Assembly (NCBI GenBank): GCA_016840855.1
Contig: JAEORO010000214.1
Location: forward strand, 1-37,689
Origin: Candidatus Thorarchaeota archaeon
Lineage (GTDB): Archaea > Asgardarchaeota > Thorarchaeia > Thorarchaeales > Thorarchaeaceae
Direction: 5' to 3'
Length of the DNA stretch: 37,689 bases
Shown here: positions 23,581 through 25,964 of the stretch, piece by piece
Layout: every line of letters begins with the position of its first letter
Numbering within the stretch: the first letter of the stretch is position 1
The notes under the pieces: generated by a model
Database searches by the model: none
What the model was told of the DNA's origin: nothing
The model's input: the letters and a program-made list of their open reading frames with translations, nothing else
Program-made: the position numbers and the translations under genes

Positions 23581-24222
23581 TTGTCTGAAGAGATAATGGC
23601 ACGTAAGTACGAATTCTTCAGTTGGCAAGGATTCACTATGGGAGCTATCTTGATGGCCGCATCACTGATTATTCAATCTTTCATCAGCTTTGATGTTGTC
23701 TGGATGGAACGTGCAGTTAGCTATGCCATATACATCATGTTCTCATCGCTCATTGTGGGTATAGCGTCAGGTGGCGTACTAGTCTATCTTTTCCCACCGG
23801 ATCAAGATGTGATTGGAATATCAGGACTTGGTAGTGATGATGTCACTCAGCATCTGTCACTTATTCTCGTTATAATTGCACTAGTACAACCTATCTTCAC
23901 AGGATTCGTGTTCTTTTACGAGTATTTTGCTACTGACCCGTTCATCTTCATCTGGGTTATGCTTGGATTTGCAGCTCCAAGTTTAGGTCTGACTGTTGCT
24001 ATGTTTGAAAGGTCTAGGGCAATAGGAGAAGACCTTAAGGTCTACTTTTCAGTTCATGAAAAACTTGACATGTCAAGCCTAGAGTGGCTGCATGCGATTG
24101 GTCCTCGAACAGCGACATACCGGATGGGTATGCTCGAGAGCGCAGCAAGAAGAGTTGATGGATTGAAAATATCAGGTCACGAGATAATACGAGAGCGCAG
24201 TCACTTCGCTGTCAATCAGTGA
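23581..24222 (+). CDS. Membrane protein (about 4 TM) with soluble C-terminal tail, unknown function
   Basis: 213 aa, four hydrophobic segments. Confidence 0.65.
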   Translation: MSEEIMARKYEFFSWQGFTMGAILMAASLIIQSFISFDVVWMERAVSYAIYIMFSSLIVGIASGGVLVYLFPPDQDVIGISGLGSDDVTQHLSLILVIIALVQPIFTGFVFFYEYFATDPFIFIWVMLGFAAPSLGLTVAMFERSRAIGEDLKVYFSVHEKLDMSSLEWLHAIGPRTATYRMGMLESAARRVDGLKISGHEIIRERSHFAVNQ

Positions 24223-24224
24223 GA

Positions 24225-24539
24225 TTACGGGGCATGTTTTTTTCGCATATGAACCTCTAAACCCAAATCATTCCATGCCACCCAATTGCATTTCAAGCAA
24301 CTAAAGGATACACTTCCAAGACCGAAACGTGGTGGAGCTTTTTCCTCAAGTTGATATATGGTACCACCATATCCGCTTCTCTTTGTTGAACTAATCTTGA
24401 ATCTCTTCTTAAAGCAGTCAGTACATATGCATAGGTTCTTTCGTGTGTCATTAGCAAAGGTGTCTTCAAGACTTTTAGCTGGTTTGATTGGGTCTACTTC
24501 TTTGCCACAACTTTCACAGTAATCTAACGAGGCAACCAC
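24225..24539 (-). CDS. Small zinc-finger protein (two CxxC pairs plus C2H2-like finger)
   Basis: CESCGKEV...CICTDCFKKRFK...FSCLKCNWVAWNDLGLEVHMRKKHAP; GTG start. Confidence 0.72.
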   Translation of the reverse strand: MVASLDYCESCGKEVDPIKPAKSLEDTFANDTRKNLCICTDCFKKRFKISSTKRSGYGGTIYQLEEKAPPRFGLGSVSFSCLKCNWVAWNDLGLEVHMRKKHAP

Positions 24540-24641: not shown

Positions 24642-25964
24642 TTAAGTAAAACCATGTCCTATTGTATTTTCAAACAGATGAGCAGCTGTAGAAAAGACTT
24701 CTTCAACACCTTCACCAGTGGTACAAGACGTTTCAAGAAATGCGACTGGATGAAGGGCTGCATCATCTCCATAACGTTGAGCTAGCTCTTCTGCAAATCT
24801 GAATCCTTCATCATACCCAACTGGTTCATCTCCCGAGTCCTCACCAGCTTCAGTCCTAAGATCGATTTTGTTTGCCACAATTACGAGTGGTGGCATATCC
24901 TCTGTTGATAGTGTGGCTTCTCTCAGCCAAAAATCAATGCTCTCAAAACTCCATCGATCAGATGCGGAATAAACTATAATCAAAACTTGAGCGTCCCTAT
25001 AGAACTCCTTTCTCTGCACTTTTGCTTTAACAGCAAGATCGAATGACCATACTCTCATTTCAACACGATGACTCTTGCAATCGAAAATACGACCAAAAAT
25101 ATGGTCTGACACAGAACCATCTTCCAGTTTTATTGGAACGATTTCTGCTTTTGCCTTCAGAGTTTCTTTTCCAACACCATCTTCTCCCAACAACAATGTC
25201 TTACATTCAACAATGGGTTTAATCTGATGGGCTGGGACCTCTTGAGTTTCTATTTCTTCGTCCAGTTGCTCTTCTTCTTCGATAGTTTCTGCGATAAGCT
25301 CAATCTCTTCATGTTCAACCTCAATTTCAGCTTCTGGGACTTCTTCTTCAGGTTCTATTATTTCACCAATCCTTGCAAATGATTTTTCGGACGCAACGAT
25401 TTCCTCATTTCCAGCTAGGTTGATACTGATTTCAGCTTTCTTCTCTACAGGTTTCTCCTTTGGTGCGCTTGTCATGAAAGTGTCGCTCAAAGATTCTACT
25501 GCTTGAAGTGCATCAGCTATATCATCAAAGTCTTCAACACTAATCTCGCCTTTCTTGTCAGCACTAACTCCTTGACTCTCAACAAATGTTGCTGCTTGAT
25601 CAGGAGCCTTTCTAAGGAAGCTTCTCTTTTTCTTCTCAGGTTTTTCAGGTTCAACTATTGATTCTGGTTCTTTCATGACTGGTTCTTCAGGAATCACTAC
25701 AGGTTCTGGTGCTTCTTTTTCTTCCAAAACTTCCTCTCTAATGACTCTTCTCGCTTTTGGAAGACCAATACGGTCCAGTACATCTTCAAGCACTCCAGGA
25801 GCCAATCTCTTGCCAAGGTATCGTATATATTTCTGCAGCTCTAGAGCGACATCGTCAAATGATCTCCCTTTCAAAGGAATCTTCTTTTTGACAACCCCCT
25901 TATCACGCACCTCAACATAGGTTGGAGTGAGCGTGAGTGAGATGGTTGTTCCCGGAATTATCAT
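24642..25964 (-). CDS. Ras/Rab-like GTPase-domain protein with long acidic N-terminal extension; degenerate G1/G3 motifs
   Basis: C-terminal TLLLGEDGVGKETL ... FYRDAQVLIIVYSASDRWSFESIDFWLREA ... PPLVIVANKIDLR ... LETSCTTGEGVEEVF; N-terminal MIIPGTTISLTLTPTYVEVRDKGVVKKKIPLKGRSFDDVALELQKYIRYLGKRL, then a Glu/Pro-rich linker. Confidence 0.85.
   Translation of the reverse strand: MIIPGTTISLTLTPTYVEVRDKGVVKKKIPLKGRSFDDVALELQKYIRYLGKRLAPGVLEDVLDRIGLPKARRVIREEVLEEKEAPEPVVIPEEPVMKEPESIVEPEKPEKKKRSFLRKAPDQAATFVESQGVSADKKGEISVEDFDDIADALQAVESLSDTFMTSAPKEKPVEKKAEISINLAGNEEIVASEKSFARIGEIIEPEEEVPEAEIEVEHEEIELIAETIEEEEQLDEEIETQEVPAHQIKPIVECKTLLLGEDGVGKETLKAKAEIVPIKLEDGSVSDHIFGRIFDCKSHRVEMRVWSFDLAVKAKVQRKEFYRDAQVLIIVYSASDRWSFESIDFWLREATLSTEDMPPLVIVANKIDLRTEAGEDSGDEPVGYDEGFRFAEELAQRYGDDAALHPVAFLETSCTTGEGVEEVFSTAAHLFENTIGHGFT

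Follow-up and report, generated by a model that had tools for sequence, protein, structure and literature searches.

A protein encoded in a Candidatus Thorarchaeota genome (3.36 Mb, 259 contigs) ends in a domain resembling the small GTPases of the Ras superfamily and departs from them at residues used for catalysis, which raises the question of whether the gene is a decaying copy of an ordinary GTPase or encodes a protein maintained for something other than GTP hydrolysis. The window, i.e., the whole stretch of DNA that was analysed (37,689 nucleotides), had been annotated initially as carrying a Rab-like pseudoGTPase on a long acidic scaffold, and the coordinates, strand and motifs given there for the open reading frame are all correct (Table 1). 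Close orthologues occur in named records (Ca. Thorarchaeota SMTZ1-45, AB_25 and others), and an NCBIfam search returned no match. Orthologues outside the closest species (L014-L027) have no ATG at the conserved start, where TTG or CTG is found instead.

The AlphaFold2 (AF2) model, for which 22 family members were used, predicts three confident pieces: residues 1-70, a helix at residues 143-164 and a Ras-like domain at residues 250-436. The first corresponds to the globular N-terminal domain of roughly 65 residues proposed from the sequence; its pLDDT is about 92, and it also folds confidently when modelled alone. The intervening linker is acidic, as anticipated (52 D/E vs. 19 K/R in 176 residues), and the predicted helix within it is an addition to the earlier description. 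The C-terminal domain matches the Pfam Ras model at 57.4 bits (E=1.7e-15; curated cut-off 21.6), and the Roc and Arf models likewise exceed their cut-offs, so that its Ras homology is far above chance. The best Foldseek matches are the Thor-Rab structures 7EZE, 7EZD and 7EZB (E=6.3e-13), followed by Rab and Ras proteins. Both the sequence and the predicted fold thus place the domain in the Ras superfamily. The label “Rab-like” holds for the fold and for the nearest structures only, and the C-terminal prenylation cysteines of Rab proteins are absent (the protein ends in FENTIGHGFT).

Table 1. Position of the pseudoGTPase gene, its domains and motifs, and its two conserved neighbours in the window.
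Feature	Coordinates	Strand	Evidence or remark
PseudoGTPase gene, 440 aa, starting with ATG, stop codon 24642-24644	24642..25964	-	Full-length orthologues
N-terminal domain, residues 1-72, three strands and two helices, MIIPGTTISLTL..VEVRDKG..KKKI	25749..25964	-	AF2 model
Linker, residues 73-248, acidic, mostly disordered	25221..25748	-	pLDDT mostly <50; D/E vs. K/R count
Linker helix, residues 143-164, within DFDDIADALQAVESLSDTFM	25473..25538	-	pLDDT >80; conserved in orthologues and paralogues
Ras/Rab-fold domain, residues 250-436	24657..25217	-	Pfam, Foldseek, family profile
G1/P-loop GEDGVGKE, residues 260-267	25164..25187	-	Lys266 retained, no Ser/Thr at position 17
His288, at the Thr35 position of Switch I	25101..25103	-	Tyr/His in 38/38; loop alignment less certain
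G3/switch II replaced by WSFDLA, residues 306-311	25032..25049	-	Family motif W[SLC]FDxA
G4 NKID, intact, residues 365-368	24861..24872	-	N, K and D each 38/38
G5 ETSC, near-canonical, residues 411-414	24723..24734	-	Canonical Ala is Cys or Ser
Zinc-ribbon/C2H2-like protein, 104 aa, co-directional, downstream	24225..24539	-	Candidate partner
Protein with about four TM segments, 213 aa, conserved C-terminal tail, convergent gene	23581..24222	+	Candidate partner

The G motifs were then counted in 38 orthologues, one per genome, all from Thorarchaeal genomes. Among the signatures of an active GTPase, GxxxxGK[ST] is broken in the window copy, which keeps the Lys and has a Glu in place of the Ser/Thr. 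Across the family, the Lys and both P-loop glycines (G10 and G15) are invariant (38/38), while the residue that follows the Lys is R8 G7 E5 K5 S4 H3 Q3 A2 L1, i.e., the Mg-binding position is unconstrained, with Ser in four orthologues and Thr in none. The Thr of Switch I is replaced by Tyr or His in all 38, in a loop whose alignment is less certain. Nothing remains of DxxGQ: the Asp57 position is occupied by S32 L3 C3, Gly is never found at position 60, and position 61 is always Ala, so that Asp, Gly and Gln each score 0/38. The motifs for base recognition persist, with an intact NKxD and a G5 that mostly reads ETSC or ETSS. The initial annotation had called the domain catalytically dead, a view that the sequence comparison supports well; its further description of the protein as a regulator is conjectural. 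By the published definition, i.e., a GTPase fold without G motifs (PMC5593906), the protein is a pseudoGTPase as far as its sequence can tell, and its Ras-like domain very probably does not hydrolyse GTP. That it still binds nucleotide is somewhat more probable than its opposite; binding without hydrolysis (class ii) is plausible on the one ground that Lys and NKxD are conserved, and binding could have been lost altogether despite both.

In a tree whose outgroup consists only of sixteen GTPases of the same genome, the pseudoGTPases form one group on a long, fully supported branch apart from the other GTPases. In 227 Asgard genomes searched with the GTPase profile, the orthologues scored 228 bits or more, a set of paralogues 142-172 and the best other GTPase 102. 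Orthologues are present in most genomes of the same Thorarchaeal family, to which the pseudoGTPase family appears, on profile scores, to be confined; elsewhere the GTPase profile matched only lower-scoring GTPases. Most simply, the Mg2+-coordinating and catalytic residues would have been lost once, in an ancestor of that Thorarchaeal family.

The paralogues (named members L002, L029, L071, L075, L077, L078, L084 and L090) are monophyletic (support 98/96), in a position compatible both with a sister group of the orthologues and with one nested among them. They share the N-domain, the linker helix and a Ras-like domain with a broken switch II, but differ from the orthologues in that the latter motif is of the WTFE or WTFP type and that the P-loop Lys has become Val or Ile in 7/9. 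Since the architecture outlived the Lys in these proteins, nucleotide seems dispensable, at least in the paralogue group. This bears on the strongest rival explanation, according to which the window protein belongs to class i and binds no nucleotide, like CENP-M or p190RhoGAP pG1 (precedents in PMC5593906), Lys and NKxD being kept for folding or contacts. The paralogues, the loss of all Mg ligands and the replaced Switch-I Thr speak for it, but the invariance of the Lys, both P-loop glycines and NKxD in the orthologues of the window copy is hard to explain without a ligand, and we consider a class i protein rather unlikely. The paralogue genes also have their own surroundings: a leucine-rich-repeat (LRR) gene lies beside the paralogue gene in 8/8 loci with enough flank (L155-L158, L071, L075, L077 and L090), and laminin-G sequence, from a gene for a giant laminin-G protein, lies near it in 7/8 (it was not found in L077, where the flank is short). 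In L155, an EAP30/Vps36-like gene is located downstream of the paralogue gene.

Relatives of the N-domain proved difficult to find outside the family. Foldseek against the PDB gave nothing significant (best E=0.36), nor did Pfam run on each family member or a profile search of the PDB; we do not claim a new fold, because a domain of 72 residues can escape Foldseek. An N-domain profile (A2) matched 42/47 genomes of the same Thorarchaeal family, a few of them solely through paralogues or through short proteins that stand alone; at E 0.01, the remaining Asgard genomes gave no match. Three of the short standalone proteins were used to build a second profile (A3), which has matches in 49/227 genomes. 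The strong ones (E no higher than 4e-20) are short ORFs of 79-121 residues, thirteen in all and from thirteen genomes of the same Thorarchaeal family; in another twelve Asgard genomes, the matches are weak (E between 7e-4 and 0.01) and were left uncounted. Standalone relatives of 76 residues are encoded at L072:1389-1616, L073:1548-1775 and L074:1487-1723; in these three genomes, the gene adjoins, as judged by eye, glycyl-tRNA-synthetase-like and universal-stress-like ORFs.

The genomic context of the orthologues is largely conserved. In the fifteen flanks examined (L091-L106 minus the empty L098), the zinc-finger gene is always the immediate neighbour of the pseudoGTPase gene and shares its strand (15/15), with the TM gene nearby, and both neighbours occur across almost the same set of genomes as the pseudoGTPase. 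Genes for APT, ABC/FtsX, an acyl-CoA synthetase and a reductase accompany the trio in most flanks, in a somewhat variable order. In G206, the TM-Zn-pseudoGTPase trio is inverted as a block relative to APT, while in G019, TM and Zn lie about 2 kb apart within a trio that is still together. Because these genes belong to a long stretch of synteny that is for the most part conserved in its entirety, their linkage may be passive, and we propose only tentatively that the zinc-finger or the TM protein is a partner of the pseudoGTPase. In G022, a 97%-complete Thorarchaeal genome, the pseudoGTPase orthologue, Zn and TM had no match, perhaps owing to a binning gap, and neither had APT at E 1e-20 in a search without positive control. 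This co-loss was weighed as a sign that the genes are functionally linked and then set aside, given that the APT search was likewise empty and that an empty answer without positive control shows little.

A regulatory role is another alternative, in which the protein would not be a static scaffold but a partner of an active Thorarchaeal GTPase, either as a dimer or as a competitor for effectors or GAPs; this overlaps the question of class i or ii. Many intact Rab-like GTPases coexist with it in the same cell. When the sixteen other Ras-like GTPases of the genome were aligned by the family profile, all had the P-loop GxxxxGKT and 15/16 had WD at switch II; for the sixteenth (L119, contig C15), the script pattern found no WDxx match. 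There is also pseudoenzyme precedent (PMC10211241), and Rnd proteins act on p190RhoGAP. No intact GTPase was seen in the conserved neighbourhood, however, and we regard such a role as unlikely. Two otherwise intact GTPases of the set (L110, contig C183; L112, contig C1) read WDLGSQ at switch II, i.e., Gly is replaced by Ser. Moreover, one protein (L007:1411-3537, contig C83) joins a BBS7/BBS2-like FG-GAP beta-propeller to an intact Rab-like GTPase (Pfam Beta-prop_BBS7 E=1.8e-13, BBS2_Mid E=1.4e-11, Ras E=1.7e-46); the stretch between them had no Pfam match and appears ear-like by eye.

At face value, the rebuilt switch II might also be read as that of a divergent but active GTPase of class iii, comparable to the RGK proteins, which retain hydrolysis despite non-canonical motifs (PMC5593906). 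In the new motif W[SLC]FDxA, Phe and Asp are fixed (38/38), and this Asp (Asp309), two residues off the Asp57 position, would restore Mg2+ binding and slow hydrolysis. Set against the simultaneous loss of Ser/Thr17, Thr35, Gly60 and Gln61, this appears quite improbable. Finally, selection on the gene can be gauged from close pairs: a script-based estimate of dN/dS, which failed for several pairs, lies at about 0.02-0.06 in the N-domain and 0.05-0.09 in the GTPase domain, values that are rough because dS is near saturation. Purifying selection is, by this measure, strong. The degenerate motifs of the window copy might suggest an ordinary Rab-like GTPase gene that has decayed in this genome alone or become a pseudogene, but the orthologues are full-length, carry the same new motif throughout and are under that selection. 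The initial annotation had named orthologues with intact G1/G3 as refuting its view, and this check did not refute it: none of the 38 has the Asp or Gly of DxxG, and after the P-loop Lys only four have Ser and none has Thr. The decayed-copy explanation is refuted by motif conservation, and its probability is negligible.

The reading that we regard as the probable one is a Thorarchaea-specific pseudoGTPase scaffold that neither hydrolyses GTP nor cycles. A Ras/Rab-like domain would have lost its Mg2+-coordinating and catalytic residues and strong purifying selection would then have preserved it as a module for binding other proteins. For the window copy, the most likely state is Rnd-like (class ii), with guanine nucleotide bound but not hydrolysed, which would mean that the protein does not cycle, and its rebuilt switch II (W[SLC]FDxA...R..FY) may offer partners an unchanging surface. 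Further partners may dock on the N-domain and the linker helix, both conserved, and the acidic, disordered linker may act as a tether, which together would amount to a scaffold or adaptor role; the zinc-finger and four-TM neighbours would be the first candidate partners, from which a membrane location would follow. In its fullest form, the proposal is of an archaeal scaffold, independent of eukaryotes, in which a small, apparently new N-domain and a docking-helix tether are joined to a dead Rab-like head. The scaffold would anchor a membrane complex with the four-TM and zinc-finger partners, and a sister branch, having dispensed with the P-loop Lys, would be paired with an LRR protein and giant surface proteins. 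As a whole, this is possible but doubtful.

Among known systems, Thor-Rab of Ca. Thorarchaeota SMTZ1-45 (7EZB, 7EZD and 7EZE; PMC10933270) shares the Ras/Rab fold and the lineage and is the nearest solved structure, but it has GKT and WDLAGQ motifs and is a single domain without N-domain or acidic linker; its phosphate release reaches a level like that of Rab11B (PMC10933270). Eukaryotic pseudoGTPases comprise the Rnd family in class ii, and CENP-M, fungal dynein LIC and p190RhoGAP pG1/pG2 in class i (PMC5593906). They likewise have a Ras-like fold without G motifs and a conserved binding module (PMC5593906), but their domain architecture differs and the losses were presumably independent, the Thorarchaeal protein being archaeal and its nucleotide binding putative. 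With its Mg and catalytic residues missing and its Lys and NKxD untouched, the latter has the appearance of a “dead” GTPase maintained as a scaffold. Proteins of this kind have to date been described mainly from eukaryotes, and we found no archaeal or Asgard pseudoGTPase in the open-licence papers searched.

The debate on how eukaryotic trafficking originated turns to a large extent on the small GTPases of Asgard archaea, which are usually tallied by their fold and taken to be switches. The present family is a warning against counting every Ras-like domain as an enzyme. With members that have the P-loop Lys and members that lack it, it offers clean candidates for studying the role of the nucleotide in a pseudoGTPase. 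A dead Ras-like domain under selection across a whole family suggests that archaea, too, came to use the Ras fold for purposes other than switching.
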